Shown in pieces: positions 836 through 53,998 of a stretch of DNA of 64,000 nucleotides; positions within the stretch are counted from its first letter, which is position 1; each line of letters begins with the position of its first letter. This DNA is from Mesostigma viride (Eukaryota; Streptophyta; Mesostigmatophyceae; Mesostigmatales; Mesostigmataceae). The DNA is taken from the NCBI GenBank assembly GCA_009746045.1, contig RPFO01000041.1, positions 4,864,420-4,928,419 of the forward strand, read 5' to 3'. Position numbers and translations under genes: made by a program. A model generated the notes under the pieces. That model was not told the DNA's origin and did not search any database. It saw nothing but the letters and a program-made list of their open reading frames with translations.

Positions 836-1005
836 TCAATCGGAATCCTCCACCTTCTTCTTTTTCTTCTTTTTCTTCTCCGACGCCGGCGCTGGGGGTG
901 CTTCTTCCTCCACTGGCTTGCTCTTCTTCTTTTTCTTCTCCGACTTGGGCTCAGCTGGAGCCGCCTCCTCCGCCGCAGCCTCGCTCTTCCTCTTCTTCTT
1001 CTTGC
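836..1005 (-). CDS. NOP56: NOP56 coding exon 9 (basic C-terminal tail and stop)
   Basis: Acceptor GGGTCGCCAG, phase 1, 55 codons and TGA. It encodes alternating Lys runs and Glu/Ala/Pro segments ([32 protein letters not shown]), the usual charged nucleolar tail of NOP56. The assignment rests on composition, phase and position rather than on a conserved motif. Confidence 0.85.
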
Positions 1006-4000
1006 CTGGCGACCCACACGCCACAGCCGCCAAGAATGACATAATAATAATTGTAAGTGGGACAACTATCAGTATCAATTATACACCACAAATACTGAAC
1101 CCATATAATTAGCATGAAGTGCACAGTATCCAGATTTCCAAACGAGCACAAGCAACCACGAGGCAAAACAGATGAGGACTATGCATAAGTGAAAAGCAAG
1201 AGCGATCATGAGCAACTTATGAAACAGCACGCGCACGCCCAACAAGCACAAGCGTTCCTAATCAGCCTCTAGTTCTGCCTATCCATGGCTTAGATTGGGT
1301 AATGCAGTAGCTCAACCACCCAAAACTTTGCGGGGGCCACCCCCAGGGAACCTAACCAGTCAAACTACTGTGGACAAAAGCAGCCACTGCAAACCAGGGG
1401 GAAAAAAAAAAACGGCAAAAAAGAAGCACCACTCCCTCACGCAGCACGCATTCTCCTGGCATCTCGCCGCCAAATATTGGGCTCCATGCCTTCAAATAAA
1501 AGTTTTCACTGGTGGCAGCATAACTTGAACCTGCAACAATCAAACCCTGCCTCATTGCCCCTCCAAGGCTACCGGCCTTGCACCTTTATTAGGGTACCAT
1601 TCCCTATGGTTACGGCACCAAAGAGCCACTCAACTTTCAGAAGCGGTATATTAGGGTTACATTCCCCCTGGCTCCAGCATTAAGGGCTGCGTTACCCATA
1701 CTGCGAGCATCCTGCTAAGGATGCACTGTGTTACCATGTATCGAATGGTTGACTCTAGAGATTTGCCACTAGCGGTGGCCGCTGGTTATACCCTAGAGCT
1801 TCGGACGCTCCACACACCCCGGACCCCTTAATCACCTTCTTCGTACCTCGAAACACTCTATGCAAGTAATGCAAGTATCACTACAGGATGACTCTACAGT
1901 ATCACTACAGGATGACTCTACAGTATCACTACAAGATGACTGTACAGTATCACTACAGGATGACTCTACAGTATCACTACAGGATGACTCTACAGTATCA
2001 CTACAGGATGACTGTACAGTATCACTACAGGATGACTCTACAGTATCACTACAGGATGACTCTACAGTATCACTACAGGATGACTCTATGGTATTACTAT
2101 ACAGTGACTCTATAGAATTATTATTTAGTGCAACCGATGCTCTCTTAGTCTCCTCAGCCCACACTCACAGTCCACATCTGGCAGCGCCGAACTACCTAAC
2201 TATAATGATCTCAAGCTAGGTGGTGAGTGGTACCCTCCTCGGCCCCATGGCCGCCGGTGGCCTTGATCGCCTCCATCATCGTCCTAAACGCTTCATTCGA
2301 GTACTGCTACACTTCAAAACTAAACCTATTATTCAGATACAGAAAGATACCGGGGCAAGGAAAAGCCAATGGTCAGATGTGCTTAGATAGCGAAGGCTCA
2401 GGCACGTTGTCGATGGCAACTCACCCTCCTCAGCTCCCCGCCCCCCAGCGGCCTTAATTGCCTCCTTCATCACGTCCATGTTGCTGCGGGGGGTGGCGCC
2501 CTTCTCGTAGAAGGCCAGCCGCTCCTCAACCTGCTCCTTCATCTTCTCGCCAAAGATGGTCGTGCCCACCTCTGCGGCCAAAGAAAGGGAGGGGGGGGGG
2601 GGGGGGGGGGGAGGCGGCAAGTAGAACCATGTAAGGTAATAGAACCAGACAGGAACTTGCCCAAGATGGTGGTGCCCGCCTCTGCACAAGGGTATAGGAG
2701 CAGACAAATAGACCATTGTAAGTAGATTGAATCTGATGCTATCTAGCCAAAGATGTCGGTGCCCAGCTTTGTGGCCAGGGGACCGGGGCACATGGAGGTG
2801 CCCAGTGAAACCAATCAAGATAGCAGCACCCGGCACAACCTGGCCATGAATAATGGTGCATGCCCGCCTCTCGCCCAGAACGGGAGAAGGTGGCAATAGA
2901 CACATCCTATATACTAATTTAGCAGTGAGTAGGCATCTGGCACTATCCAGGGCATCGCGACTTCTCCGCCAATCCAAAAAGCCTGGAAATTACTGAACGC
3001 CAATACGAAAGAAGGGGACCAACTGACCACCAACCCGCGCGAAGCGCCTGGCGAGCGAAGCGAGCTGCGCTGAAAGCGCACAGCGAGCGCAGCGAGCGGC
3101 GAGCGGAGCGAGCACCGTACTGTTCAGCAGGCTGCGAGCGAAGCGAGCACCGTAATGCTCCCCTCTCCGGAGCGCAGACAAGGACCACGTACTACGCAGC
3201 GGGCAGCGGGCAGTCCCTCTACCGCCTAAAAGGTCTCTCTACCGCCCAAAAGTGACTTTTTTTGGCTGGGCGAAGCCAGCGAGTCCCACTAGTCACTGTT
3301 GTAAGTGAATAGAACGGGAGACGGTGGCAATAGACACATTACCGTTGTAAGTGAATAGAACGGGAGACGGTGGCAATAGACACATTACCGTTGTAAGTGA
3401 ATAGAACGGGAGGCGGTGGCAATAGACACATTACCGGTGTAAGTGAATAGAACGGGAGACGGTGGCAATAGACACATTACCGTTGTAAGTGAATAGAACG
3501 GGAGGCGGTGGCAATAGACACATTACCGGTGTAAGTGAATAGAACGGGAGACGGTGGCAATAGACACATTACCGTTGTAAGTGAATAGAACGGGAGGCGG
3601 TGGCAATAGACACATTACCGTTGTAAGTGAATAGAACGGGAGACGGTGGCAATAGACACATTACCGTTGTAAGTGAATAGAACGGGAGACGGTGGCAATA
3701 GACACATTACCGTTGTAAGTGAATAGAACGGGAGACGGTGGCAATAGACACATTACCGTTGTAAGTGAATAGAACGGGAGACGGTGGCAATAGACACATT
3801 ACCGTTGTAAGTGAATAGAACGGGAGGCGGTGGCAATAGACACATTACCGTTGTAAGTGAATAGAACGGGAGACGGTGGCAATAGACACATTACCGGTGT
3901 AAGTGAATAGAACGGGAGACGGTGGCAATAGACACATTACCGTTGTAAGTGAATAGAACGGGAGACGGTGGCAATAGACACATTACCGTTGTAAGTGAAT

Positions 4001-7000
4001 AGAACGGGAGACGGTGGCAATAGACACATTACCGTTGTAAGTGAATAGAACGGGAGACGGTGGCAATAGACACATTACCGTTGTAAGTGAATAGAACGGG
4101 AGACGGTGGCAATAGACACATTACCGTTGTAAGTGAATAGAACGGGAGACGGTGGCAATAGACACATTACCGTTGTAAGTGAATAGAACGGGAGACGGTG
4201 GCAATAGACACATTACCGGTGTAAGTGAATAGAACGGGAGACGGTGGCAATAGACACATTACCGTTGTAAGTGTAAGTAGGATCCATTTTCACTCATACC
4301 CTGCACAAAGCGGTTCACTCAATTCACAGACTGCATAAAGCGGTTCATAACATTCATAACCTGCCTAAAAAGGCGATGCCTTACTCGGCGGACACAGGGG
4401 TGGGGGGGTGGGGGTGGTTATGTGACCGGATACAGCATTTACTGTTGGCCAGTTTTCTCCTACCATTTCCGCCTCCTAGTATATCAAGGAGACAACCAGC
4501 GCAGGCCAGAAATCTAGTATATTCTTACGCCTTCCTTCCCTCCCTCATCCCTTGTTGCCCACTCACCTCCATCGTGTGCCGCGACCCTGCCGCCAGGAGC
4601 TAGAAAGACGTTTCATCTCCATCTCCGTCTCCACATCATGGAGGCTTCATGCTCACGTGGCGCGGTCTACGTGTCAATGAATTAATTTAATTAATTAAGC
4701 GGGTGTTGCCACTCACCGGAAAAAGGCCTGAATCGCGTGTTGCCACTCACCGGAGAAGGCGTCTATCCTTGACGCGATGGAGCACTTGTTGGCCAGGTAG
4801 CGCGAGATGCGGCCCTTGTTCTTGGCCTGTGCGCGGCCGATGAACGACGAGTGGTAGATGAGCCCGTACTTGGGCGTGTTGCCCTTGGTCTTGAGCGCGC
4901 TGTTGCGGGACAGGTGGCACGATTGCATGAAGCAGATCAACACGATCAGAGAGGACATGGCATCGAGAGGTCAACGTCATGCTGCAAGGGTGATCTGGAT
5001 AGACCGGGCTTGGGGGTGCTGCCCTCAGCTCTTGACACGTTTTTGCGGGCAGTGTCAAACGCGGCGAGACACGTGACAAGGCAAGGCATAACATAACAAC
5101 ACAAGATGTACCTGTTCCTTTTGACCCTGTTCCAACTTGACTGCTACTATGTTCCATGCACCGGAAGAGTGCCTCGGCACTCCTGGTTTCTGCCACGATA
5201 ACTACCTTCCTTGGCTAACACCCCACGATAAGAAGCGAGAAAGCTGTACAGTGGATATCATACTGTAACATTTTAGTAAGGACACTACAGTATAGTCCTG
5301 TCCCACCCACCGGAAGAGCGCCTTCTCCGCCCCAAGGATCTGCACGGTCGACGCCGGGTGCTTTGCGAGGTTGGTCAGCGAGCCCGCGTGGCTGATGAGC
5401 CGCGCTCCCACCACCTCGCCGATGAGCGCGGCGAGGTTGGGCGCCACGCTGTGCATTTTGTCGGTCAGGTAGGCAAATAGCTTCTTGCGGTACGCCGCCA
5501 TGTCGACCACGCGCTGCGCAAACGACATGATGTTGATCATGTCGACCGGCGAGATGTCTTGGCCTGTGGTGGGTGGGTGGGTTCCGGTTAAATGTGCATG
5601 TATGGGGGGGTTCCCTTAGATATAGAAGAGGGGAGGGGGTCCAATAGATGTGGAGAAGTGGGTGGGTGGGTTCCGATACACTAGTATGTGGAGGAGTGGG
5701 TGAGATACAGATATTAAAAAGGGGGGCGGGAGTCAAGCTAGTTGTAATAATGGCGCACATTGAAGTACCCATGGCAAGTCGATGACCGCGGCATGTGTGG
5801 TGCCCACGATGGAAGTAGCAGTCGAATTGATTGTCTTGCACTTGATTGTCTCGGCTACCCCGTCAAAGGTTAGTTGATATCACGTAGGCTGAGAAAGATA
5901 CCAAGCTCTCTTCTACCCGATAAAGGTTTTAATACCATGCTCATTTTCATTTTCAAATACCATCCTCCCTCTCCTCTACCCCTTCACGACAGACGGCTCT
6001 TAACCTGCCCTCTCTAAACCTGCCCGCTGTCAACCTGCCTGCAGTCATTGAAGCTCTGATCTACCCCACATAAATTAGCTCCCATCCACCAGTGACAGCT
6101 GGGCTACTCGGTTCTGGGGACAGCCGACCCAATACCGAGAACTGGACAGCCATTGGAGGTGAGGACAAGGCTTCCAATGCCTTCTCCTCGTCCCCCCTCA
6201 CTCACAAGGATAAAGCTCTCCACGGTAGAAACAAATCCTGTTGTCTCCTCTTTTCCATTATCCGTTAAAGATACACCACTCCCTCTAAATATACACTACC
6301 TCTGCAACTGCTGCACTACCCGCACGCACCCATGGACGCACGCGCCGCCTCGAGCACCTCCTGCGCCTTGTCCTCATCCCCCACAATCTCGGTCAGCCCA
6401 GGGAGCGACTCGTCGGACAGCGTCGCCTTGTCCTTGATGAAGATGGCAAGCTTGGCAAACGTGAGATTGTCGTTGACCACCTTGACCAGCTCGGGAAAGT
6501 GCCACGAGTACCACTCCCTGGGAGGGGGGGGGGGAGGAGAGGCATTTACAAGCATCAATGAGGAGACTCCCAGGCACAGAAGGGGAGGCGTGGGAAGGCC
6601 TTCCCAGACATATATGGGCAGGGCGCAGGGGGGGGGGAGGGAGGATTCACAAGCATCAATGAGGAGAGATTCCCAACACAACTGGGGAAGCATTCGCAGG
6701 CACAGACGGGCAGGGCGTCATGAGCAAAGGGTGCGAGTGCTAGGAGAGGTAAACTTGGCACCGCTGCATGTGGTTAGCCGATGTGGGGAGACGCCGCATA
6801 GTGGGTCCTGGGCAAAGAAAATGTGAGCTTGGGGGCAGGGGGGAAGTTCATATATTCTGTGGGCATGGTATATTCTGTGGGCATGGCAAGAAGGTCAGCT
6901 CTGGCGCCTGTCACTTGCGGGGGCGACGACACCACGAATGCCGTGTTCTGGTGGGGGGGGGAATCCCGTACTGGTGTCCATGCGGCGTGTAGACCCTAAC

Positions 7001-10000
7001 GTGGTGCTTTCCCCCCTTACAACGTCCACGTCAATTAGTGTGTGAAGCACTATTTTGCGAACTCACACTTATCAACGGACTTGGACGGTGTAGTTACTGC
7101 AAGATAAGCCATTGCTTATGAAGCACACATCCCCCCCCCCCCCCCTTGTGCAGTGACGAACAGTTGATGTCCTTGTCCAGCGTGTCAGCGAGGCAGATCG
7201 CCTGGGTGAACATGTTCTTCACCCACCCTTGTATATACAGTTACCTATTGTATACGTCATACAGTGACCTGTCACGTACGGTATGCGCTGCTGCGTCTCC
7301 TGCTTCCTCTTCTTCCCCCCCTCACCTGACGCGCATAACGAACGTGTTGATGTCCTTGTCCAGGGTATCCAGCAGGCAGATCGACTGGATGATCATGTTG
7401 TCCACGCGGTTCACGTTGAACTTGACCTTGGAGCGTGAGTACGAGTGCCCCAGGCCCAGCTGGGCTTTCTCAATGTCGCCCTCCTGGTCACATGCGCAGC
7501 ATTTGAATAAAAAATGACAGAATACATGAAGAAAGTTAGAACAAATAAAAGAGTACATAAAAGAATGTAAGAAAGAGCATCAAAGTACATAAACGAGTAT
7601 AAAGCAGACAAGGAGAGAAGTAGCCCCCTACTTTTGTTCCCCCTACGCTCCAACATGGACCAGGTTTACTTTTTCTTTACACAAATGCATGGGCGGCATG
7701 ACACGGGTGCTTCGTAGCATGGCGCAAGTCGATAGCGGCAACAGCCAACTGGCAAAGGCAGACCGAGGAATCTAGAGGGACCGAGAAAGGTCGACATCCA
7801 ACCACAGTTCGGCCAACTGGAAACGAAATAGACGCCAACACAGAGCTTTAGGTCTTTAATACAGCATCTGAAATGCAGCCGGGTTCCAACCAATCTTTAG
7901 GTCGTCAAGGGACGATCCAAAGGTGCAGGCGGGTGCCAAAAGATGCCCGAAATTGAGAACCTCAGGAGGCATTGGTCTCGATACTTCCGGGCATTAAGTT
8001 TTTTGCTATATCCCAACTCACCTTCAGGTCTTTAATGAAGCGTCCAAAGTGCAGGCGGATGCCTCGCGTGAGCTCCTGCACATAGTCGTTGCAGACGCAA
8101 GGTATGCTGGCCTCCTCCTGGATGGCAGAGCCTAGCTTGGAGTCCGCCACGCCCACCTTGAACTTGGCCTTCTTGGCCGACTTGACCTTGGGCAGGTTGA
8201 GTGTGAGGAAGTTCTGCAGGTCCTCCGTCATCAGGCCTGGGGGGCATCAAGGGGGAAGATGGTGAAGAGGCATATAAAGGGAAAAAAAGGAAATAGAGGG
8301 AGGGTTAATGAACTTGACCTTGGGGGGAGGTTGAGCGTCAAAAAGGTTCTGCAGATCTTCCGCCATCGGGACAGGCGAGGGCAGACAACGTAAGAATAGG
8401 AATGCAGAAACCAGGTGGGGGCCAGGGGGTCAAGTGATGAAGATGCCAGCATCCGTTGGTCAGTTGTGCCTCGAGATAGGTCGAGCTTTCAACACCGTGC
8501 CTTAAATAGTGGAAGGGGGGTGGGGCAGGGGCACCCCGGGGGGGGGGGGGGGGGGGAGAGAAGAGCTACCTAGTGGCTATGACTACGGCTTCGCAAGGCA
8601 GCCCCCTATGATTTTCTGCCTTAACGCAAGGTAGACGAGGAGAAAACGGAGGAAGGGAAGAGGAGAGGCTTGCTGGCGCGAGAAATTTAGAATGGGAGGA
8701 CAGCTGGAAAGGGAGGCTTCCGTTGACATAACCCACTTACACAAGAAATGCCGGAACCTGCCGCTTCTACAATTATTATTATTACTATTATCATTACTAT
8801 TATTGCTATCATAATAACTTATGGTAATTAAAACAACCACTAGATTATCCCAACACGGGTGACAGTGTACGGGAGCGAGCAAGGAAGGGGGTTTTGCACG
8901 GACCAACCAGGAAGGTCCGGCAGGAAATGATGCGTGGGCGATGGGCATAGCAGCACACCCAAGACCCAGGCAACAACAAAGCCCAGCGAGCACACTGGCA
9001 CCAAGCACATGCCCAGGGGGCAAAACCGACGACACTACAGGAATGGCCAGCAGTGCTGCCGGAGAAAGATCTACCCAGCGTTGTGGCTGCGAGCCCCCAT
9101 CCCAGGAAAACGGATGTATAACCCCTTGTACAGGGGTTGGCTTGAAGAGGAGTAGCCAATTGCCGTGTACCGACTAAACGCGCAGCTTCAAGCAACTTTT
9201 TGCCCTCCACGATGTTGCTTTTGTTAGTTATCTGACCACTTTGCAAGGAAGCAGAATGCAACCCGAACCATGGCCTATCAAATTAAATAAGCCCCATCAC
9301 AGCCCGAATAGGTGTTGCCTAGCAAAGTAGTTCTGGCGGTCCAGTTGGACACAGTCTGCAGCCCAGACACCCAAGCAGGCACCAGTTTCTACCCACATTC
9401 TTCATACTCACATCTACTAACAATGGCAACAGATAGCCGATCCCATGGCCACAAACGGCCGAGACTAGGCTTAACTATACAATGCATCAACTACTAGGTG
9501 GTTGGTTATACTTGCGACCGTGGCACACACACGCAGATAGGGACAGTGGCCAAGAGAGTTAAATGCATCGTTGAGCTGGAGAGGTGCCATGCAAACAAGC
9601 AACACCACGGTAGGACTCGGACCAGAGACCAGAACAGAGAGTTGTTGAATAAATATATCAGTAGTAGTACTTGATAAATAGATAGGTATCCACAGCAACA
9701 GCTGGGGAACAATGTGGACGAGAGCAGAGAGTCGTTAAATAAATAAATAAATAAAGACGTATCTACCGCGACCAACAGACCGAACAAAAAGCCACCACGC
9801 CAACCCCTCCACTTGCCCCGTCTGCATGCATTTACACCTGCTGCATCCCCCCACGTGCAGAAAAAGAAAAGTACACTACTAGGCTTGCACAACAACGTAA
9901 AATAAGTACGCAACCAGTCACCGACACAACCAGCCAGTGACAGCCAGCCAGTGACAGCCAGACAGTGACAGCCAGACAGTGACAACCACACACAAGGAAA

Positions 10001-46700: not shown

Positions 46701-49700
46701 TCATGTCCATACGCACCCCATCCCCATGTCCCTGTACTGTGCTGACTCAGCCCTTCCATTACGCAAGTCTCTGTCTCCTTTGAATGCCCTCCTTTGTGTG
46801 TTCTCCTTTGTTCGTGCTGTATTTTCATCCCCTTTGCTCATGCTGCCCTGTCGGCGATGATTCGTGATGGATCCCAAATGGGCCAACGGGCAGGCGCCAC
46901 CTGGCGCGCCGGCGTGCCCGCGAGCAGCAGTTTCGTGCCCTTGGTACTGCCGCCGTCACCATCCAGCGTTGGTGGCGCGCCACCTGCCAGAAGTTAGCCC
47001 AGAGGAAAGAGGCCACGCAGGCAAGTTCTATATAAGCTCCTTCCATCCACCTTGTGCTTATTCTACTAGTACAACTAGTATCAATAGTACACAACTGGCA
47101 TCAATATATACAACTAGTATCAAAACATACAACTAGCATCAATACATGCAACTAGCATCAATAATACGCTGTCACGTGCTTTAACTAATGCTACGTGGAC
47201 TGAAATGAAAGGGGCTGTGTGTATGTACATACTTCCCCAGGGCTGATCCCGTAGTATCCTTCGCGGTATTGATTGTAATAGGATTGTTTTTACTTGCACG
47301 CACGTTCCATCGTCGCGTCAGAGGCGGCATGCCCCCTGTCGTGTGGCGCTGTGTGCATAGGGCCTGCGATGCATGTGGATCACAGTATGCACGTGCCGTT
47401 ACGGCATGCACGTGTAATGCCTGAAGCGTCATAGCCCAGCGTTAAGTGCACAGTGTCATGCTAAACCATGGCACTGTGGTACTGATGGCCAACTTAGAGC
47501 ACGACTGCCTCCACCGACAATGCGCTGCCTCCGGCATGATACCGGAAGTGCGCTGGTATCATCGGCAACATAATCCAAATACTAACTAAATAAGTAAATA
47601 GTTTTTGGTCGTATAAATTATAAATATGTAACTGGCTGTCCGCGAAACTCCCGGAGCTAGTGTATAGAGGGGGGGGGGAGGGGGATAGACCCCCCCACCC
47701 CACCCCCCTACCCCCAAAACTGGGGGGGCGGGGGGTAAAGGGTCGGATCCTTCCCCCCCCCCCCAAAAAATGGGGGGGGGGGGGGGGTTGGGGGGGTTTG
47801 GATGCAGACCCCCCCACACACACCCCTGAAAAAAAGGGGGGGGGGGGCGCCAGCCAAATTCTTGATTTTGGCTAAGGGAGCGGGTCCAAGAACGCATCCG
47901 TCGCGCCCATTCTCCTAGCCCTGGCTATGATGGTAGGCTGAGCACAGCGTGCCTCCAAATTCAGCCATATTTGTGGCATTGGAATTAACTTGGTTTGACT
48001 TTACCTACTTATTAGCCAATCACATTAGACAACTCATACCTTGACCATGACCATGTTGGACCGGCCGGGGCCGCGCGACTAATTAGCTCATAAGATTAAT
48101 TAACATTTGATTACCATGGTGCCTTAAATTAAAATTTAAATTAAATTAAATACCATGACTCCGTTGGGAGATTTAAAAAATTAAATTAAAAGAGACAATC
48201 ATTGGTAGACAATAAGGTGACACGACATTTATGCAGTCGGTCATGATGAGCGGCCGGCACTCCGAACCCTTTTTGAGTTCTTGAGTGACAGCAGTGAGTG
48301 ACCTGCAGAGCCCGGGAGCCGAATTCCCGCCTTCAAAGGTGCCCGGGAGAATTCCCGCATTGTAGCAATTCCTGCGCGATTCCCGCGGTGAACCCCAATT
48401 GAAAAAAAAAATTTGGGGGGGGGGGGTGACCCACCCCACCCCCACCCCCAAAACTGGGGGGGGGGTGGGTCGGGGGTCAAGACCCCCCCCACCCCCCACC
48501 CCCGGAAAACGGGGGGGCGGGGGGTGGTATACACTAGCTCCTGGAGTGTCACGGACAGCCAGGTAATACACCACAATGGTTTTGTACCAGAGGCAACTAA
48601 ACCTCAGAGAACCGATGTGTTTGACCCCCCCCACACACACCCTAAAAAAGAAGTGGAACCCTCTCTTGTACCATGGGAGAAAGCTCGCGTTGCCTCGTAC
48701 AGTAATAACTCGGTTGATAGCCTCTTTTCATGCAGGCTCGTTCCTAAAAAACTGACTTGGTGCTGCAAACCACCTATGCCCCTCCAAACCCTTTCCCCAC
48801 GATTTTTCCCTGCCCCCTACCTGCCTTGCCTCCCCTCTCTTCACCCCTCTCTCCTTCCCCTCTCTTCTCCACGTCCCTTCTCCACCTTGTCCCCTCCTCC
48901 TCTCTTCCCCCTCTCTCCCTCCCCTGTTTTCTGCCTCTGCTCTACTATCTCCTCTCCCTCCCTCTTCTTCCCGTTTACCGCCGCCGCCACCACCACCACC
49001 ACCACCACCACCACCACCACCACCACCACCACCACCACCACCACCACCACCACCACCACGCAGAAGCGGCGCCGCGCGGGCCTTGCCCGCGTGATCCAGC
49101 GCCACTGGCGTCGCTACACCGCGCGCAAGCGGGCAGCACGCATGCGGGCCGAGCGTTCCCGTCACCACGCGGCCGCGACCACCATCCAGCGGCACTGGCG
49201 GGGACATGCGGCGCGCAAGCTGGCGGAGAAGCTGAGGAATGGGCGCGACAAGTCCCTTTGGTACGTTAGGCATACCAGCTGGTTGATTCGGCTGTTTGTT
49301 TCTAGTATCAAGAAAGATACTTCTATTGTCTAGATAAGAGGAAAGTCATGAGATAGGAAATAAGTTATGAGAGATGAGCCGACCTGGCATGTGGGCAGAC
49401 CTGTGGGCAGACCTGTGGGCAGACTAGCCATGTGAGTTTTCATCCGGTATTTGAAAGCTTCGTGTACGGCAAGTTGCCTTACGTCGTCACCCACCTGATG
49501 CAGCCACTTGCTTATCAATGATTAAGGCAAGTTGATTCAAGACAAGCCCACGTGACGCAGTCACATGCTTATTAATTACTAAGGCAAGTTGCTTCAGACC
49601 AGCCCACTGGTATCGGGAGGCGCCCTGCTGGTTAACCCTTTTGAACTATTTGAAGACGGTTATTACGAGACAAATTTCCAGTTCTTCTGCATCCCCTTTC

Positions 49701-52700
49701 CTGTTTCCCAAGAGGCAAAATAAGTAGTTTATTTCTTTGATACAGGGCAGTCTGTTTTCTTCCTTTCACCTTTTCTCTTACAGGTGCACGCATTTGGTAT
49801 ACTTTTGGTATATTTTTGGTGTACTTTTGGTATACTTTTGGTAAACACACACGCACACATAAACAACATTATACACACTGCACAGGGACACGTACACATA
49901 AACAACCAGACATGTAGACAAGCACTCTGAGCTCACCTTCCAGCGTGGTCTTCAAAAGTCGTCTGCATGTTGTGCATGCTGCGCGCGCTAACCTGCATGT
50001 GGGGACTTGCATGCTGACCTGGCCCTGATACAATATGCGGGACCACCACCACCACCACCACCACCACCACCACCACCACCACCACCACCACCACCACCAC
50101 CACCACCACCACCACCACCACCACCACCACCACCACCACCACCACCACCACCACCACCACCACCACCACCACCCCACGGTCTACCCCACGCGGGCGTCCA
50201 CCTGGCAGCGCCACGCGCATCCAAACGTGCTGGCGGGGGTACCGTGCGCGCAAGTACCGCAAACAGCTCAAGGTGAGCGAGTGAGGCTGCGGGTGACGGA
50301 GGAAAGTGTAGAGGGTTCGGGAGATATGATGAGATATGATGAGATATGTAATGCAGTGGGTTCGGGAGATATGATGAGAAGTGCAGAGTGGGGATAAGGC
50401 AGATAGCTGTTGAGTGTGTTTCAGACCGAGCCGCTCGGGTACTTGATGGATCCTTGCTGCATTATTATTATTATTATTATATTTTTTTTTTTTTAATTGT
50501 TATTATTATTATTCACCGCTTTTTGTGTGCCCTCTGAAGATGGCCTGTAGGCAGCACACTAGTGCATGGCAGTCAAAGGGCCTGGCTTGCAGCGCTCCTG
50601 GGTGCATTGACAGGCACACAGCCAAAGTTCTATTGGTACAGCTTGTAGCTTTAGCTGAGCATGCCACCCAAGTCATGGGTTGGTGTAAATGCCGCCCCCC
50701 TCTTACACCCCCCGACCCCACCCCCCCTCTTTGGCATCTCCCAGTGCTGGCCCCTTTGTTATTTGGTCCCCTTCACTGTTGGGCCCCCTTTAATATTGGG
50801 CCCTCTTTATTCTTAAAACCAGAGGCGACCCAGTTTTTTAGCACGGTGACCAAGTGGGCACGTGGGATTATATAGTTTATATTTTAGATTTCCTTTCCGG
50901 TCTATCGCTGTCACGAATGATGACAATGGGCTGCTCATGTGCTTTCTTGTGTACATGACCCGTCCACAGCACCACCACACAACACCACCTTGTCCAGGTG
51001 CTGCCCCCCCTGTAGAAGCCGTCCTCATTATTCACCCTTCCATCCAAGTGCCCTCGTACGCGTCCACACCACACCACACCACTTCTAGTCGGACTCGTAC
51101 GTGCGCTAGTAGTCGGACCCCCCTTGGCCCAGGTGCTGGGCCCACACCTGATCTTCCTGGATGGATCGTACTCATACCTACTGAACCCATCCACCCCACC
51201 CTACCCCACACACATGGTCCAGGTGCTGGCCCCCCTGCGTGCTGCCCAGTTTGTGCCCCTGCGGCCGCTGTACCGCGAGCTGTTCATGCTGCCGCAACCG
51301 TTTGTCGACCCAAAGGTCGACCAGGTCATCATCAAGCGGGCGCTCGCGGGCATGGATGCGGTGAGCGGTTGCTTTGTCATAGATTATGCTGGCAACCCCA
51401 CCTCCTATTTTCATCTGCCCCAACACCCCTTTTTACATCCCCCATCCACCCTTCATTCTCAAGAGGAGATATAGGCTAGTGACTTTGGCAATCGAACTAT
51501 TCTTGAATTCCTATTTGGCATTTGCCTTTGTTGCCTTTCTCATTCTCGTAACTTGATCATTTCAATGAGCATAAATATCCTACCCACTCACAACCACAAC
51601 TGCAACCACGCCCACGCCAACGCGCACAACCACAACCACAACCACAACCTCAACTACAACCACGCCCACGCCCACGCCCACGCCCACGCCCACGTCCATG
51701 CCCACGCCCACGCCCACGCCCACCCACCCACCCACCCACCCACCCACCCACCCACCCACCCACCCACCCACCCACCCACCCAGCCACCCACCCAGCCACC
51801 CACCCACCCACCCACCCACCAACAGCTCTCGGACGCCGCGATCAAGGACCTCAAACAGATAATACAAATCCACAACAATATCAAATGATTATTAGAAATA
51901 TAATAATCGGATTTCTCTTGCTCCTGCATGCGAGGGAGACGAGATGACTACTTAAACCTGCCTTTGGCAGGGGCTCTACTCATTGTTTTCAATCAAATGC
52001 TGGTTTTCTTGGGAGCTCAAGTGTCATAATATCAAATGATGATTAGAAATATAACAATAATGATTAGAAATCGCTATTCCCACACACACACACACCACCA
52101 TCACCACCACTCACACAGCTCTCGGAGGCCGCGATTGAGCACCTCAAGCAGCACGCCAAGGAGCTCGTGCTCGAGAGAAAGGCAAAGGCGGAGGAGCACG
52201 TGGCCATGCGGCGCGAGTGCGGGCTGCTCAGTCGCCTGCTCAACCTACCGCCCAAGCACTGGCATCAGCCGCTGGAGGAGGGGGTGTGCGGGTGGCTGTC
52301 AGAGCCTGAGATGAAAAAGGTGGGTTGGTCATGTAATGCACTTAGTGATCAAGTGATACATTACAAGGCGTGTTGCACAGGACGCGTGAAGCCTCCCAAC
52401 GTGGTGCCAAGCTGAAGACGGTGAGTGGGAGCCGGATGAAGGTGAGCTCGAACCTTGCTGTTCCGTGCCTGCTTGCCAGTCGTTGCCTGCTCATCGCACC
52501 TTTTTTTTCCTGTTGCTTTTCAAACTTGTGTTGCTCATGCTAGTCGCGTGCGCCAGATCCATGCGTGCAGATACTGGCTTATTGCCAGAAATGTCTTAAC
52601 ACTAACGGGGTGTAGCTCATGTCCGTTGTGTGAGCCCGGTCCGTGCTGAACTCCCTGTAAACTCTTTTAGATTAGACCGGAGGCTTAGGGCCGGTCCGAT

Positions 52701-53413
52701 CCTATTCACGACTCCCCTCGGTTGTCTCGTTGCGTGAGCCCGGTCTGCGCTTAACTACCCATAACCCCCTGCTAATTGCTGGTCGTATCCTATTGCCGAT
52801 TCCCCTTGGTCAATGCCTCTTGGTTGTCTCGTTGCGTGCTCCAGGCTAACACGGAGCTCAAGCGGCTGCGCGCCGTCAAGAAACTCAACTCCTCCGTGCT
52901 CATCCTCGAGGTGCCATATATAGATCGCTTGAGGCTACCATATGTAGACAGCTTGAGGGTACCATATGTAGATCGCTTGGGGGCGCTATATATAGACAGC
53001 TCGAGGGTACCATATATAGATCGCTTGAGGGTACTATATATAGACAGCTGGGCACTGTAGCAAACTAGCAATACATGTCGACAAGTCATCACACAGTCAG
53101 CGCTTATCGTCTGCGCTTATCATAGACCATGGTGCTGAATTCTGGTGAAGCCATTGGGGATGTATTCCGTCCCTTTGTGTTCATCGCGATCTGTGCCCTG
53201 CCCATGCCACCACGAACAAAGCCAATGGGCATTTACCCTGCCTCTTTGGGTATGTTTGAGGTGTGTCCTCTTCCCCTCCTGCGTCCTATTGCCCTTTTAA
53301 TGATCTGACAAGGCCACTGGGATGCACGTGGCCCCCCCTGCAGGCCAAAGCCATGCTGGAGCATCTGTGGACCACGCTGGGTGTCAAGAAGAGCTACCGA
53401 GAGGCGTTTCAGG
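13671..53413 (+). CDS. WW/IQ-repeat scaffold protein with CEP164-like modules (21 exons, 3' incomplete)
   Basis: Twenty-one exons (listed separately) join with all phases matching to give 1074 codons plus one base; the start is unresolved and the end lies outside the window. Domains in order: WW module (exons 1-2), helical exon 3, LGID lead-in plus WW (4-5), charged linker (6), FPPW module with IQ motifs (7-9), a second WW module (9-10), second LGID plus WW (11-12), second FPPW plus IQ motifs (13-17), and a helical C-terminal part (18-21). About 13 IQ motifs of the IQxxxRxxxxR type are visible. The LGID...LVWIA...LP.GW order and the HPxD..F end match the N-terminal WW region of centriolar CEP164 as I know it. 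WW domains bind Pro-rich ligands and IQ motifs bind calmodulin or centrin, so a centriolar or axonemal scaffold is inferred. Exons make up about 8% of the span. Confidence 0.85.
13765..14117 (+). other. Intron 1-2 with donor and acceptor echoes
   Basis: Exon 1's CTGCCAGGTGATTCT is echoed as CTGCCGGGTAATTCT (about 13845) and CTGCCAGGTTATTCT (about 13946). 14008-14053 copies the acceptor and start of exon 2 but reads GCGGCGGAT where the real site has GCCGCAGAC, so the AG is lost. Confidence 0.85.
14118..14239 (+). CDS. WW/IQ gene exon 2: WW domain
   Basis: Acceptor ACCGCCGCAG, donor GTACGT, phases 1 to 0. It encodes DSWSEYFD, GRVFYYDHERGESQWAHPLF and MFKAMYQR. Both WW tryptophans and the central YY are present, so this is the most canonical WW domain of the protein. 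A mutated copy of its 5' edge precedes it (14008-14053) and a copy of its 3' edge with an intact donor follows (14282-14333). Confidence 0.92.
14240..14960 (+). other. Intron 2-3 with echoes of both exons
   Basis: 14282-14333 copies the exon 2 end and keeps GTACGT; shorter decayed copies follow near 14400 and 14533. 14760-14852 copies the whole 3' splice region and first codons of exon 3 with an intact CTGCAG. 14440-14500 has TATAGTGACCAG repeats. Confidence 0.85.
14961..15059 (+). CDS. WW/IQ gene exon 3: helical segment
   Basis: Acceptor TGCCCCTGCAG, donor GTGGGT, 33 codons, phases 0 to 0. It encodes ILDAPHLHAYFRRLYTRIRE and RRQWETLQ. Similar to the end of exon 10 (DEPHPV...AWYKCVYFRL). A near copy of the acceptor and first codons is at 14760-14852. 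Confidence 0.85.
15377..15499 (+). CDS. WW/IQ gene exon 4: LGID lead-in
   Basis: Acceptor CCCCCCCAG, donor GTATAG, 41 codons, phase 0 at both ends. It encodes EVEDMCSWLGIDFEAEPQLV then WIAKHAAE. The LGID...EP.L.WIA pattern corresponds to the segment before the CEP164 WW domain and to exon 11 of this gene. Confidence 0.92.
15500..16000 (+). other. Intron 4-5 with three echoes of exon 4 end
   Basis: TGGATCGCCAAGCACGCC at the exon end is echoed as TGGATTGCCAGCATGCC (about 15551), TGGGTCGCTAAGCATGGC (about 15699) and TGGATCGCTAAGCGTGGC (about 15766). The first keeps AGGTATAG. The end is C-rich before exon 5. Confidence 0.85.
16001..16120 (+). CDS. WW/IQ gene exon 5: WW domain (second Trp lost)
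   Basis: Acceptor CTTCTGCAG, donor GTACGG, 40 codons, phase 0. It encodes IALPPGWEEDRDENGEPLFH and SVKHPMDDYFLAL. The first Trp and the HPMDDYF end are kept; the second Trp position reads Val. The donor leads into the 20/27-bp satellite, whose open frames run on from this exon but are not considered coding. Confidence 0.92.
16165..23960. repeat. 20/27-bp satellite (7.8 kb) in intron 5-6
   Basis: Hundreds of copies of a 20-bp unit (GCACGCTGCTCGTGTCATGG) interspersed with a 27-bp form that has an extra CGCGCAC after GGGCAC. Common variants are TCATGG/TCGTGG, GTGTCA/GTGCCA and GGGCA/GTGCA. All three plus-strand frames stay open for the whole array because the unit has no stop codon in any frame; this is a property of the unit, not evidence of coding. 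Flanked by a donor of exon 5 and the acceptor of exon 6. Confidence 0.95.
23961..24337 (+). other. End of intron 5-6
   Basis: About 23990-24012 (CTTCGCGCTGCTACCAGCA) resembles the exon 5 end and donor (CTCGCGCTGGTACGGCAGG). 24050-24090 holds two GGGAA(T/C)GAACTGACTGACT copies and 24100-24185 two copies of CTTGCCCTTGCG-ATGCTAGC. Confidence 0.6.
24338..24392 (+). CDS. WW/IQ gene exon 6: charged linker
   Basis: Acceptor TTGTTGGCAG, donor GTGCGT, 18 codons plus one base. It encodes IEEERELLASEQPSTDKK. It is sandwiched between the 7.8-kb and 5.8-kb arrays and recognised by phase, splice sites and the similarity of HP.D..F..L-IEEE to the CEP164 continuation (HPCDE..., IEER). Confidence 0.75.
24393..24829 (+). 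other. Start of intron 6-7 with exon 7 acceptor echoes
   Basis: 24410-24510 is an approximately 60-bp tandem duplication. 24674-24705 contains CACAGTCCTAGCGCTGCGCC, matching the acceptor and start of exon 7 (CCCAGTCCTGGCGCTGCGCC) 6 kb downstream. A shorter copy is at 24765-24785. 24507-24540 may echo exon 6. Confidence 0.7.
24830..30686. repeat. 21-bp satellite (5.9 kb) in intron 6-7
   Basis: Two intermixed 21-bp units sharing CTCTCCCTTGTTGAT, followed by AGTTGC or TTCCCC. Units are about 280. Being a multiple of 3, the array gives long false frames on both strands: hydrophobic Ser/Leu/Val/Asp heptads on plus, NKGEATI heptads on minus. Single-base deletions (for example at about 27786 and 28940) shift frames. 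A higher-order repeat of 1154 bp is visible (27781 against 28935). Confidence 0.95.
30687..30838 (+). other. End of intron 6-7 with exon 7 echo
   Basis: 30727-30760 (CCATCGTGGCGCGGCACCAG, then TAGCGGGAATACGTCGC) copies the region around the exon 7 start (CCATCGTGCC... CGCCAGCAGAGGGAATATGTCCC). With the echo at 24674 it brackets the 21-bp satellite. Confidence 0.75.
30839..31044 (+). CDS. WW/IQ gene exon 7: FPPW module and first IQ motifs
   Basis: Acceptor GTGCCCCCAG, donor GTGGGC, phases 1 to 0. It encodes GQTYYVHFGQGVQTYFPPWE, AARRIQREWRAWVEWARK and ends TVTIQ. The intron splits an IQ motif directly after Q, as in the paralogous exon 13. Confidence 0.94.
31045..31347 (+). other. Intron 7-8 (303 bp), plain
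   Basis: Short CACA-rich and C-rich intron. No exon echo seen. The C-rich tract at 31265-31345 forms the acceptor region. Confidence 0.7.
31348..31544 (+). CDS. WW/IQ gene exon 8: IQ motifs, GC donor
   Basis: Acceptor GCCCCCCAG, 197 bp. It encodes RYYRGHLVR (completing the split IQ), AAITIQRAFRRHLTRLDIR and IIQSYWR. The best donor is AG|GCACGT, a GC-type site: joining to exon 9 gives IQSYWR-GYLARQMYKR, an exact IQ consensus. A GT alternative three bases on (CAC|GTGGAC) would break the phase. Confidence 0.88.
31545..32131. repeat. 52-bp tandem array starting at exon 8's donor (about 11 copies)
   Basis: Identical 52-bp units beginning GCACGTGGACAGCCCCCATG, the first of which starts exactly at the inferred GC donor of exon 8. 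Every unit therefore carries a copy of the donor sequence. Confidence 0.93.
32132..32952 (+). other. Rest of intron 8-9 with exon 8 echoes
   Basis: 32180-32212 (ACCCGGATAGCCC...GCGCTGGAGGAGG) and 32272-32335 (CTCAAGGATG, AAAATCATACAGGCTCACTGGAGG) are decayed copies of the last 60-70 bp of exon 8. The second can be read IIQAHWRRLE then stop. 32887-32907 is a C run. The rest shows nothing recognised. Confidence 0.75.
32953..33158 (+). CDS. WW/IQ gene exon 9: end of first IQ series and lead-in of second block
   Basis: Acceptor ATGCCACCAG, donor GTAGGG, phases 2 to 1. It encodes GYLARQMYKRHLAARTIQTA, WRRHMAQ, then HELRWIMKEFQAAPLP. The APLP-G split matches the exon 1/2 junction, so this exon joins the two duplicated blocks. 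Confidence 0.92.
33159..33340 (+). other. Intron 9-10 with two echoes of exon 9 donor
   Basis: 33186-33226 (CTACTGCCAGGTAGGGTCATGG) copies the exon 9 end and donor. 33248-33278 (GCACAGTTATCTACCCTTTC) is a further decayed copy of the same 60-bp unit. Confidence 0.85.
33341..33707 (+). CDS. WW/IQ gene exon 10: degenerate WW and helical segment
   Basis: Acceptor CCTCCTCCAG, donor GTGCGT, 367 bp, phases 1 to 2. It encodes AGWSERPNPAFDPVTGG, a Glu/Asp/Ala-rich insert, LYFHDQDRVASDIHPLLGAF and WAWYKCVYFRLKPYFGDD. It is a WW-like module with a long insert and no second Trp, fused to the equivalent of exon 3. Confidence 0.9.
33708..34012 (+). other. Intron 10-11 with a fused exon 10/exon 11 echo
   Basis: 33764-33833 contains CCCTATTTCGGGGATGACCA and GTGGTATTCCATCGACTAAC (exon 10 end), continuing directly into CCCCGGTCAATGACGCGCTC (exon 11 start). 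Both exon edges are thus present, adjoining, within one intron. Confidence 0.85.
34013..34127 (+). CDS. WW/IQ gene exon 11: second LGID lead-in
   Basis: Acceptor after a C run (CCCCCCCCAG), donor GTGGGT, phases 2 to 0. It encodes EVRDMADYLGIDPVTEGPLL then WVARQSVQ, paralogous to exon 4 with the same downstream phase. Confidence 0.93.
34128..34678 (+). other. Intron 11-12 with (CCCT)n and acceptor echoes
   Basis: 34227-34440 is a (CCCT)n tract. 34504-34625 has about five 27-28-bp units (GACAGCTTGCTGCCCC and variants) that resemble the exon 12 acceptor GACAGCTGGCGCTCCCC. Confidence 0.8.
34679..34977 (+). CDS. WW/IQ gene exon 12: WW-like domain and basic linker
   Basis: Acceptor GACTGGACAG, donor GTGCGT, phases 0 to 2. 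It encodes LALPLGFEERVDENHNTYYF, VVAKHPVDAVIRHIL, then a Gly-rich and Lys/Arg-rich segment (GGKRRKKRVGPGRYEINP). The first Trp is Phe and the second is missing. The RYEINP end is echoed twice downstream. Confidence 0.92.
34978..35160 (+). other. Echoes of exon 12 end
   Basis: GGCCGATACGAGATCAACCC (exon end) recurs as GGGCGATACGAGATTAGCCC with GTGAGT (about 35049-35072) and GGCGATACGAGATCGACCC (about 35131-35149). Spacing is near 85-95 bp, so this is a three-copy tandem duplication including the last exon codons and the donor. Confidence 0.88.
35165..36945. repeat. 40/41-bp satellite in intron 12-13 (about 44 copies)
   Basis: Unit TTCTCATATCACTTACATAT plus CTATGATCCAGA(C)GGACCTG. The 41-bp form has CAGACGG and the 40-bp form CAGAGG. 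A further switch is CTATGATCC/CCAGGATCC. Mixed phase gives several short false frames. Confidence 0.95.
37140..37332 (+). CDS. WW/IQ gene exon 13: second FPPW module and IQ motifs
   Basis: Acceptor CACACGCCAG, donor GTGCGT, phases 2 to 0. It encodes GGTLFYVHFGLREQTRFPPW, AARRIQRAWRRMKLRRARK and AAAILTIQ. Paralogous to exon 7 along its length, with the same IQ| intron position. Confidence 0.94.
37333..37430 (+). pseudogene. Echo of exon 13 end and donor
   Basis: 37369-37405 (ACGCGCAAGGCGGTCGCAAT, CTTGACAATCTAGGTAGG) copies the exon 13 end (GCGCGCAAGGCGGCTGCCAT, CTTGACAATACAGGTGCG). The donor GT survives; an in-frame TAG has arisen. Confidence 0.88.
37432..40180. repeat. 49-bp satellite in intron 13-14 (about 56 copies)
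   Basis: Unit begins GGCCCTATGGTGAACCCTCG. Main variants are CCCTATGG/CCCGATGG, GTGAACC/GTGGACC and GGAAGC/GGACGC. From about 39250 to 40090 the first variant alternates strictly, giving a 98-bp dimer repeat. Confidence 0.95.
40181..40976 (+). other. End of intron 13-14
   Basis: 40185-40410 has three approximately 84-bp copies (GGTTGGCTTGAGTACGATCC core), the last shortened. 40868-40893 (GGGCGGGTACAAGCTGCATC) echoes the exon 14 acceptor and start (GGGCAGGGTGCATACCGGCTGCATC). The rest has no recognised element. Confidence 0.75.
40977..41140 (+). CDS. WW/IQ gene exon 14: IQ motifs
   Basis: Acceptor TTCGGGCAG, donor GTACGA, phases 0 to 2. It encodes GAYRLHRIRKKLRARQAERA, AIRIQSAYRRHLARK and ATAIQRSYR. 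Paralogous to exon 8, again ending inside the Arg codon of an IQ motif. Confidence 0.92.
41141..41255 (+). pseudogene. Echo of exon 14 end
   Basis: GCGCAGCTACCAGTACGAGC at about 41235 matches the exon 14 end and donor GCGCAGCTACCGGTACGATT. The change CCG to CCA alters the last exon base. Confidence 0.85.
41256..41790. repeat. 41-bp tandem array (about 13 copies)
   Basis: Unit AATGTGAGAGGGTGTTTGGT plus GATAATGATTGTTTAGTTAAG, with TATTGAT/TATAGAT/TTGGTGAT variants. Lies just after the exon 14 echo in intron 14-15. Confidence 0.92.
42070..45908. repeat. 61-bp satellite in intron 14-15 (about 63 copies)
   Basis: Unit begins ATCGAGGATGGGGTCATGGG. Nearly the only variation is one position (GGTCTTATC or GGTCGTATC) and a single G deletion near 43190. 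The array starts with GCGAGGATGGGGTCGTTGGG, one diverged copy. Confidence 0.95.
45909..46893 (+). other. End of intron 14-15
   Basis: 46070-46125 and 46610-46665 hold related GT(A)TCGGCTTATTCATG repeats. 46670-46760 has a duplicated TGTACTGTGCT(A/G)ACTCAGCCC. No gene or RNA recognised. Confidence 0.6.
46894..47020 (+). CDS. WW/IQ gene exon 15: IQ motifs, GC donor
   Basis: Acceptor CAACGGGCAG, donor CAG|GCAAGT, a perfect GC-type 5' splice site. It encodes RHLARRRAREQQFRALG and AAVTIQRWWRATCQK. Reading past the donor meets TAA within five codons, so a splice here is required. Confidence 0.88.
47021..47627 (+). other. First part of intron 15-16
   Basis: 47065-47160 is a loose 18-20-bp repeat with ACAACTAGTATCAATA variants. 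The remainder (47160-47627) has no structure I recognise. Confidence 0.6.
47632..48562. mobile_element. 931-bp non-autonomous DNA transposon (MITE-like) with TIRs
   Basis: The left end CTGGCTGTCCGCGAAACTCC (continuing CGGAGCTAGTGTAT) and the reverse complement of the right end CTGGCTGTCCGTGACACTCC (continuing AGGAGCTAGTGTAT) match over about 35 bp with three mismatches. GTAA flanks both sides directly (47628-47631 and 48563-48566), a 4-bp target duplication. Inside each end lie long alternating G and C runs able to form hairpins or G-quadruplexes (47670-47850, 48405-48525). No transposase is encoded. It sits in intron 15-16 of the WW/IQ gene. The superfamily is not assigned. Confidence 0.85.
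48567..49063 (+). other. End of intron 15-16 with (CAC)n at the acceptor
   Basis: 48780-48975 is pyrimidine-rich (CCTCTC-type). 48987-49058 is (CAC)n reaching to the acceptor GCAG. A plus-strand frame is open through this tract into exon 16 and could give a poly-Thr or poly-His extension if the intron were retained. Confidence 0.75.
49064..49260 (+). CDS. WW/IQ gene exon 16: IQ motifs after a (CAC)n tract
   Basis: Acceptor (CAC)nGCAG, donor GTACGT, phases 0 to 2. It encodes GLARVIQRHWRRYTARKRAA and TTIQRHWRGHAARKLAEKLR. The (CAC)n run in front can be read as poly-His or poly-Thr but is placed in the intron. Confidence 0.92.
49261..50208 (+). other. Intron 16-17
   Basis: 49390-49430 has three GTGGGCAGACCT copies. 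49490-49600 is a tandem repeat of about 60-70 bp (GGCAAGTTGATTCAAGACA and GGCAAGTTGCTTCAGACCA). 49797-49845 has five TTTTGGTATAC-type units that resemble exon 16's donor (TTTGGTACG). 50041-50174 is (CAC)n. Confidence 0.7.
50209..50272 (+). CDS. WW/IQ gene exon 17: single IQ motif
   Basis: Acceptor CACCTGGCAG, donor GTGAGC, phases 2 to 0. It encodes ATRIQTCWRGYRARKYRKQL K. Also preceded by a (CAC)n tract (50041-50174) at short distance. Confidence 0.88.
50273..51222 (+). other. Intron 17-18 with exon 18 acceptor echoes
   Basis: 50320-50385 repeats GATATGATGA. 50460-50515 is an ATT/T-rich microsatellite. GTCCAGGTGCTGCCCCCCCT (50993-51012) and GCCCAGGTGCTGGGCCCACA (about 51127-51146) echo the exon 18 acceptor GTCCAGGTGCTGGCCCCCCT. 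Confidence 0.8.
51223..51360 (+). CDS. WW/IQ gene exon 18
   Basis: Acceptor CATGGTCCAG, donor GTGAGC, 46 codons, phase 0. It encodes VLAPLRAAQFVPLRPLYREL and VDQVIIKRALAGMDA. No known domain recognised. The acceptor and first codons are echoed at about 50990 and 51122. Confidence 0.85.
51361..52118 (+). other. Intron 18-19 with (CCCA)n and a full acceptor echo
   Basis: 51600-51820 goes from (CAACCA)n through (CCCACG)n to (CCCA)n. 51821-51866 is AACAG followed by CTCTCGGACGCCGCGATCAA, an echo of the exon 19 start (CTCTCGGAGGCCGCGATTGA) with intact acceptor. ATATCAAATGAT(T/G)ATTAGAAATATAA is repeated (51880 and 52028). Confidence 0.85.
52119..52319 (+). CDS. WW/IQ gene exon 19: coiled-coil-like
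   Basis: Acceptor CACTCACACAG, donor GTGGGT, 67 codons, phase 0. It encodes LSEAAIEHLKQHAKELVLER and KAEEHVAMRRE, helical and charged, then LPPKHWHQPLEEGVCGWL. An echo with an intact acceptor lies at 51817-51866. Confidence 0.88.
52320..52844 (+). other. Intron 19-20 with donor and acceptor echoes
   Basis: GGAGCCGGATGAAGGTGAGC (about 52429-52448) echoes exon 19's end GAGCCTGAGATGAAAAAGGTGGG with a good donor. 52715-52745 (CGGTTGTCTCGTTGCGTGAG) echoes the exon 20 acceptor region (TGGTTGTCTCGTTGCGTGCT), within an approximately 100-bp duplicated unit. Confidence 0.82.
52845..52910 (+). CDS. WW/IQ gene exon 20
   Basis: Acceptor CGTGCTCCAG, donor GTGCCA (weak), 22 codons, phase 0. It encodes ANTELKRLRAVKKLNSSVLI LE. 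The donor opens a six-copy 24-bp repeat in which each unit offers a GAGGGTAC-type or similar decoy donor. Confidence 0.8.
52908..53053. repeat. 24-bp repeat built on the exon 20 donor (6 copies)
   Basis: Units run GAGGTGCCATATATAGATCG, then GAGGCTACC, GAGGGTACC, GGGGGCGCT, GAGGGTACC and GAGGGTACT forms, each followed by ATAT(A/G)TAGA. The first begins at the last codon (GAG) of exon 20, so the donor itself is the repeated element. The frame stays open for 48 codons by virtue of the 24-bp length. Confidence 0.9.
53344..53413 (+). CDS. WW/IQ gene exon 21 (last exon in window)
   Basis: Acceptor CCCCCTGCAG, donor GTAGGG, 23 codons plus one base. It encodes AKAMLEHLWTTLGVKKSYRE AFQ. The donor and following bases are echoed several times up to about 53960. 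The gene continues beyond the satellite at 64000. Confidence 0.82.
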
Positions 53414-53998
53414 GTAGGGAACCGATTCATGTGGCAAATTAACATGTTCTGGCTTCCACCAGTTTTGGCTTCAATAAGGCATGGCAAGGTAGGGAACCGA
53501 TTAGCGTCCAGAATCAACAGGCTTAGCAGCCAGTTTTGGCTTCAATTAGGCATGGCAAGGTAGGAAACCGAGTAGTATTACGAATTAACAGGTGCAACAG
53601 CCAGTGTTGCCTTCAACAAGGTATTCTAGGGTAGGGGCCAAAAGATAGCTTACAAGTATCTCCAGTGCTTCCTTACCAGTATCCACATATTATAGCCAAT
53701 GTTGCCTCTAAGGAGAACTGCCGGTAGGCGGTCCACGGTAGGGATCTATCTGGGGCGCTGCAGCTTAGAGACGTGGGTAGCCTGCCATTCTCATATAATG
53801 ATACAACAATAATAAGTAATATTGATACAACAATAATAAGTAATAACGATAAAACAATAATAACTATCACAGCACAATAACCATCACATATCGACGTATT
53901 ACAGCCAGCATCCTGCTACCGGGGGCGTTCCAAGGTAGGCACTTGTTTAGAAGTACGCTGTTTACAAAGAACCTTCCAGGGTACGGAGATGGGGAGGA
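53414..53998 (+). other. Donor echoes of exon 21
   Basis: GGGTAGGGAACCGATT at the donor is followed by AGGTAGGGAACCGATT (53489), AGGTAGGAAACCGAGT (53559), GGGTAGGGGCCAAAAG (53629), and weaker AGGTAGGCACTTG (about 53931) and GGGTACGG (about 53979). They are mostly 70-75 bp apart, with TTTTGGCTTCAA-AAGGCATGGCA between. Confidence 0.88.

Follow-up and report, generated by a model that had tools for sequence, protein, structure and literature searches.

Introduction

The introns of two adjacent genes of Mesostigma viride contain decayed copies of the ends of the exons that adjoin them, and the question raised by this locus is how exon sequence came to lie inside the introns that it borders. The stretch analyzed, referred to here as the window, comprises 64,000 nucleotides of contig RPFO01000041.1 (assembly GCA_009746045.1, positions 4,864,420 to 4,928,419 of the forward strand), and the two genes in it are NOP56 and a gene with WW and IQ domains (WW/IQ). 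All counts given below come from these two genes in this single assembly. Both gene models were reconstructed on the basis of splice sites, and the introns are named N1–N8 in NOP56 and W0–W21 in WW/IQ (Table 1). According to the M. viride genome paper, mean intron length in this species is 1141.9 base pairs (bp), the second longest among the species compared, and repetitive elements make up 30.1% of intron space (PMC6947507).

An initial annotation of the window, made from its letters, proposed that the copies are genomic duplications across the exon-intron border and that a genome-wide process keeps lengthening existing introns from their edges, leaving decoy splice sites. This interpretation is partly supported by the present analysis. 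The copies were probably put into the introns by local direct duplications of ~60–300 bp that spanned the border, a reading to which we assign a probability of about 0.75.

Detection of Exon-Edge Copies

Exon-edge copies inside their own introns are a real feature of both genes. Comparison of each exon edge and its flanking intron sequence with its own intron revealed 34 copies at 25 of 58 edges (p ≤ 0.01), with six edges bearing two to four copies each. The copies lie on the same strand as the source exon and adjoin it. They occur in 20 of the 30 introns, with controls near zero. Such copies had been described for both genes in the initial annotation. Its figure of six in eight NOP56 introns was found again, and its figure of about sixteen in twenty WW/IQ introns is too high: 13 of the 21 complete WW/IQ introns carry copies, all 13 among W1–W20, or 12 if W19 is set aside, where the match includes a single exon base. 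The incomplete W21 carries copies as well. Thirteen of the 14 sites listed in that annotation overlap a copy at p ≤ 0.01, and the remaining one, at 24674 in W6, is a 27-base match (23/27 identical) that was equalled by 4 of 500 shuffles.

Searches with exon sequence alone gave the same picture. Whole-exon BLAST against the window (expectation value E ≤ 0.01, first WW/IQ exon left out) yielded 11 matches in introns. Every one of them shares the strand of its source exon and falls in the adjoining intron, at the end that corresponds to the matching edge; 10 of the 11 ended at most 2 bases from the border. The remaining matches outside the query exon itself were between exons with common WW or IQ repeats. 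When 60-base exon edges were searched with arrays and homopolymers masked and W0 left out, the own intron contained the best match of 10/27 donor edges, with 0.49 expected, and of 8/28 acceptor edges, with 0.50 expected. The opposite, wrong edges of the same exons had theirs there in 0 of 27 and 0 of 28 cases (0/55), and the opposite strand of the own intron gave no top match for any 60-base edge. Based on comparison with shuffles, 10/27 donor and 7/28 acceptor edges reached p ≤ 0.01, in contrast to 1/27 and 0/28 wrong edges, and the single wrong-edge positive was a 55-base exon, both edges of which are the identical query.

With up to 70 exon bases, 17 of 57 own edges reached p ≤ 0.01, as compared with 0/57 for the reverse complement, 8/285 for other introns (five for each edge) and 1/25 for exon interiors. 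At p ≤ 0.001 the respective numbers were 15, 0, 1 and 0. The comparison of own with other introns, which the initial annotation had named as a possible refutation, came out in favor of its observation. The nominal level of p ≤ 0.01 was reached in real DNA 8 times in 285 against other introns, and among the 25 edges one or two may accordingly be false positives.

Content and Decay of the Copies

Most copies cross the exon-intron border. The alignments include at least one base on each side of the border in 33 of 34 copies and at least 6 aligned bases on each side in 28 of 34. The six below this mark are those of N4, the N7 donor, W3, the W10 donor, W18 and W19, and the N4 and W18 copies do span the border once more flank is given. 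In the printed alignments, donor consensus and polypyrimidine tracts were copied together with the exon. Thus, the claim that the copies are genomic duplications across the border, and not processed RNA, stands for most of them. The NOP56 exon sequence found in copies is also conserved in PDB entry 7mq8, whose NOP56 we take to be the human protein, and the exon is therefore the source.

Decay of the copies resembles that of neutral sequence. Identity over the 34 local alignments is 78% in the exon part and in the intron part alike, the latter being a favored figure because local alignment favors the intron part; the exon parts diverge by roughly 10–40%. Codon positions and splice sites were scored in the best copy at 20 of the 25 edges (N7 donor, N7 acceptor, W1 donor, W19 acceptor and W21 donor left out). 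Mismatches at codon positions 1, 2 and 3 numbered 48/295, 50/299 and 81/295 (chi-square p 6e-4), and 70 of 176 changes (40%) were synonymous, as compared with 24% for random changes. Two paralogous exons of the same gene displayed a stronger bias (13/57, 12/57 and 27/58). This pattern fits neutral decay of the copy combined with a source exon that changes chiefly at synonymous sites. An assembly artefact as the general cause was rejected in view of the roughly 10–40% difference in the exon parts and of the codon-position bias.

The copies are of partial exons, and in at least 11 of 23 alignments, by visual count, indels in the exon part break the frame. The splice dinucleotide was retained in 11 of 20 copies (donor 8/12, acceptor 3/8), where about 12 are predicted from 78% identity; therefore, there is no sign that copies were kept or purged as splice sites. 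WW/IQ copies in which GT or AG is intact begin at 14286, 14770, 33207, 35031, 37379, 50952 and 51787. The decoy sites of the initial annotation are real in that copies of splice sites are carried into the introns, but a function as decoys was not supported, dinucleotide retention being not above neutral.

Local Duplication in Introns and Between Genes

Local direct duplication is general in this DNA and extends beyond exon edges. Self-comparison of each of 29 intron regions gave 44 direct matches, two of which were coding repeats. The 42 local direct duplications kept consist of 24 that involve an exon edge (22 edges) and 18 that lie entirely in intron interiors. Against these 42, one true inverted pair and three palindromes were found. 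The inverted pair is formed by the 38-base terminal inverted repeats (89%) of a transposon-like element in W15 (47629–48565), which has GTAA at both flanks (by eye) and contains G- and C-rich tracts.

The periods are 60–316 bases in 23 of the 24 edge cases and 58–232 bases in 16 of the 18 interior cases. Edge periods are longer (medians 140 vs 90, p 0.036; an edge value of 785 was omitted, since an array lies within it), as length-biased sampling at a fixed border would give. Arrays occupy 26,112 of the 46,250 bases of complete introns. In the W8 array the border is repeated in every 52-base unit. The W8 and W20 donor arrays, which reach 4 and 6 bases into the exon, carry little weight, since chance alone would produce about one such overlap (hand estimate). 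W21 contains a 26-base array of ~355 copies with 99% match (54769–64000) that continues beyond the window end.

Two direct duplications, of 114 bases (91%) and 18 bases, occur in the two intergenic stretches, where no inverted one was seen. The 114-base duplication lies below NOP56, at 55–164 and 378–491. A run of 33 bases overlapping it (48–80) recurs exactly at 4482–4514 in NOP56 intron 7, ~4 kb away.

Origin of the Copies

The following mechanism is proposed. Small local direct duplications (~60–300 bp) would arise frequently in this DNA, and one that spanned a border would leave two donors or two acceptors. Use of the outer site, namely the upstream donor or the downstream acceptor, would produce the original exon and an unchanged protein, and the event would therefore be nearly neutral. 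The inner copy would become intronic and then decay, so that introns lengthen. Selection would freeze the exon and the decaying copy would remain recognizable, making exon edges a fossil record; repeated events at some edges would yield two to four copies or a minisatellite. The DNA error may have been slippage, template switching in cis or unequal sister exchange. A head-to-tail origin is suggested for the older copies as well, and splicing presumably ignores the copies. Of these steps, the data show that exon sequence was copied into its own intron in direct orientation, that most copies cross the border and that their decay is neutral-like.

Several observations weigh against this reading in its simplest form. 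Abutment was assessed at 19 of the 25 edges (N7 donor, N7 acceptor, W1 donor, W8, W10 acceptor and W19 left out): the copy pairs abut head to tail with 0–8 bases left in 5 of 19 and show similarity in the remainder in 2 of 19, whereas 12 of 19 have no detectable partner for the stretch between the copies. A strictly tandem origin is therefore shown for 5–7 pairs only, and the other 12 may be either old copies of tandem origin or local copies made with a spacer. The W10 and W3 copies, whose identity marks them as fairly young, are without the intron part that would be expected. Furthermore, edges are more frequent among the duplications than a simulation predicts. Edges are over-detected because the conserved exon copy does not decay, and the size of this bias was estimated by planting 420 interior and 420 edge duplications in real introns and running the same search (an earlier run in random sequence had given detection rates only). 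At a divergence of 0.22 per copy, detection was 0.67 for edges and 0.27 for interiors. Uniform duplication thus predicts an interior-to-edge ratio of 2.2–2.6, and 0.75 was seen (18 vs 24); therefore, uniform duplication does not account for the observed ratio even when detection bias is included. As a full explanation, uniform duplication with better visibility of exons fell 2–3 fold short in this simulation.

An edge-preferring duplication, in which a process linked to the border lengthens introns chiefly at their ends, is a possible but doubtful alternative. Its causes might be, for example, recurrent exchange of the frozen exon with its copies, or breakage or pausing at the border. The predicted edge share of 30–32% gives a binomial p of 2e-4 to 7e-4 for 24 edge versus 18 interior cases, and of 0.003–0.007 when 9 interior and 2 edge-anchored arrays (period ≥19, hand-counted) are added (26/53 edge); the two to four copies at six edges point in the same direction. 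On the other side, the simulation took no account of deletion, which would narrow the gap, since an interior pair can be lost through either of its copies; with a guessed edge share of 37%, p rises to 0.006 and 0.049. Copies at the same edge are not independent (24 matches from 22 edges), and long intron arrays may conceal interior events. The edge excess of 2–3 fold is a lead, not a result, and it runs counter to the simplest reading. The statement in the initial annotation that introns lengthen from their edges is not supported as it stands: the same kind of duplication occurs inside introns and between genes, but an edge excess beyond bias is possible. That Mesostigma introns grow preferentially at exon borders, genome-wide, through recurrent border-spanning duplications that make them in part from exon edges, with conserved exons as a datable record of this growth, is put forward only tentatively, and we would not expect it to hold in this full form.

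The remaining explanations are less probable still. Templated insertions at the repair of double-strand breaks would copy nearby sequence into introns, in agreement with the local sources and with the unmatched stretch between copies in 12 of 19 pairs. Such insertions are expected in both orientations, and this explanation, already improbable, was rejected on the 42 direct versus one inverted pair; moreover, the order exon-border-intron is preserved in the copies. Reverse transcription of transcript pieces into introns, to which a somewhat lower probability is given, is favored by the W10 copy, which joins two exons without the intron. This stretch of 87 bases scores 297 against the joined exons, as compared with 221 and 107 against the two unspliced borders. 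It is the only stretch with exons joined in this manner (two of the 34 entries): among the three best matches for each other junction, only the W2 donor copy scores above 130 while reaching at least 10 bases across (182, 11 bases), and the remaining junction matches score at most 130. The W10 donor and acceptor have CCCAGG in common, and a small deletion there would yield the same junction; the W10 copy originated either with a spliced transcript as template, or by a deletion fusing a donor and an acceptor copy at CCCAGG, or by chance abutment. The intron side present in 28 of 34 copies (one of the 28 being the W10 acceptor half), the adjacency of all 11 BLAST intron matches to their source and the lack of junction copies beyond W10 led to the rejection of processed RNA as a general explanation.

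That the copies are traces of intron birth, through tandem duplication of part of an exon, is less probable again. In this known model, direct repeats of exon sequence flank the intron, as described in a review (PMC3443670). It predicts a copy of the upstream exon end by the acceptor and a copy of the downstream exon start by the donor, without intron sequence. However, most copies lie ~60–330 bases from their own border, the exceptions being the W8 copy past the array, the weaker N7 copy at 4351 and the W6 copy at 24672, and most span the border. Since most copies cross the border near their own edge, the intron was already present; intron birth was rejected, and the view of the initial annotation that existing introns are lengthened rather than created is upheld. 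Chance, or composition shared by splice sites, can draw on the short consensus words common to such sites, but it is refuted by the wrong-edge, reverse-complement and other-intron controls given above and has a negligible probability. Border-spanning local direct duplication is thus the preferred reading.

Relation to Known Systems and Significance

Insertions in neutral DNA are commonly short tandem duplications and minisatellites. The duplications described here belong to the same mutation class, and arrays make up more than half of the intron length; unlike in plain minisatellites, exon edges retain the source copy, so that even events that have decayed can be seen. In another known system, that of tandem exon duplication and mutually exclusive exons, exon sequence is likewise copied into the adjoining intron. 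In contrast to it, the copies here are of part of an exon with one splice site, many with frame-breaking indels. Gao and Lynch (2009) is cited in the literature on intron gain by tandem duplication.

Intron gain by tandem genomic duplication has been reviewed (PMC3443670), and cases are described for Drosophila (PMC2891723) and potato (PMC4974935). There, too, exon sequence and its splice signals are duplicated locally and in direct orientation, and one part of the new copy turns intronic; the difference is that here an existing border is mostly spanned and an old intron becomes longer, with none newly formed. Introners (PMC9860276) also shape introns across a gene set, but by one element entering many genes, whereas each copy here comes from its own exon. 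The repeats treated in PMC11782384 are also direct repeats at exon-intron borders; they are 4–30 bases long, pair the 5′ with the 3′ border and are read as insertion footprints, whereas one border and intron-internal copies are involved here. Literature searches, with subscription papers mostly outside their reach, turned up nothing on decayed exon-edge copies that lengthen introns, which is not proof of absence; in the main text of PMC7027972 the word "intron" was not found.

Old duplications inside introns fade with both copies decaying, and selected exons provide fixed references by which the growth of single introns becomes countable and roughly datable. If this were true genome-wide, rates of intron duplication and deletion and any preference for splice borders would be measurable from one assembly. 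Gene finders may also meet good-looking false exon ends.

Features of the Window and Public Gene Models

Table 1. Genes, exons and exon-edge copies in the window (coordinates count from its first base).
Feature	Position	Strand	Remark
NOP56	836..10742	-	9 exons, 8 introns (N1–N8)
NOP56 exons 1–5	10740–10742 (ATG), 10281–10485, 8022–8236, 7326–7483, 6330–6517	-	
NOP56 exons 6–9	5311–5563, 4751–4899, 2425–2571, 836–1005	-	
NOP56 exon 3, acceptor-edge copy	8312..8402	-	spans border
NOP56 exon 3, two donor-edge copies	7884–7937, 7829–7882 (7829..7937)	-	
NOP56 exon 4, donor-edge copy	7126..7224	-	82 exon bases
NOP56 exon 6, donor-edge copy	5150..5199	-	GT retained
NOP56 exon 7, acceptor-edge copy	4996..5057	-	
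NOP56 exon 7, weak donor-edge copy	4695..4720	-	p 0.0099, 4 exon bases
NOP56 exon 8, three acceptor-edge copies	2656–2700, 2728–2788, 2840–2893 (2656..2893)	-	
NOP56 exon 8, fourth acceptor-edge copy	4351..4412	-	distant, weaker
NOP56 exon 8, donor-edge copy	2210..2284	-	spans border, GT retained
WW/IQ-domain gene	12219..53413	+	22 exons in window; W0–W20 complete, W21 partial
W1 donor-edge copy	13905..13969	+	weak, p 0.0019
W1 acceptor-edge copy	14004..14057	+	abuts head to tail
W2 donor-edge copies	14271–14348, 14482–14575	+	first: period 84, abuts, GT retained
W2 acceptor-edge copy	14770..14866	+	AG retained
W3 donor-edge copy	15133..15173	+	similarity ends 2 bases beyond border
W4 donor-edge copies	15550–15604, 15661–15757	+	
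W6 far acceptor-edge copy	24672..24698	+	23/27 bases, weaker
W6 acceptor-edge copy	30687..30765	+	
W8 donor array	31541..32131	+	52-base unit, 11 copies; starts 4 bases inside exon before GC donor
W8 older donor-edge copy	32243..32378	+	past array
W9 donor-edge copy	33207..33264	+	period 60, abuts, GT retained
W10 copy	33767..33853	+	upstream exon end joined straight to downstream exon start
W12 donor-edge copies	35014–35095, 35130–35170	+	
W13 donor-edge copy	37370..37434	+	period 69, abuts, GT retained
W17 acceptor-edge copy	50952..51040	+	AG retained
W18 acceptor-edge copy	51787..51858	+	AG retained
W19 acceptor-side copy	52714..52743	+	intron sequence with one exon base
W20 donor array	52905..53049	+	24-base unit; starts 6 bases inside exon
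W21 donor-edge copies	53477–53518, 53548–53589, 53686–53756	+	

The 22 WW/IQ exons form a single open frame, and a public jgi/Mesvir1 protein (a label that we take to denote Mesostigma viride) matches it at 100% over the full query length. NOP56 is matched by a jgi/Mesvir1 protein at 100% over 89% of the query, the remainder being the last exon, which is missing from the public model. The listed Mv13200 model reads through the donor at 2424 into NOP56 intron 8. Similarly, Mv13201 reads through a donor (53414–53440), running past the last exon of the window to end within intron sequence; the paralogue Mv09011 extends beyond the Mv13201 end (by eye), and the annotated C-terminus of Mv13201 may therefore be wrong. 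Among the best 7995 candidates by shared words in a database of 5.8 billion, the WW/IQ protein had 4 matches at E ≤ 0.001, two of them from Mesvir1. Two WW/IQ introns begin with GC instead of GT, at 31545 (GCACGT) and 47021 (GCAAGT).

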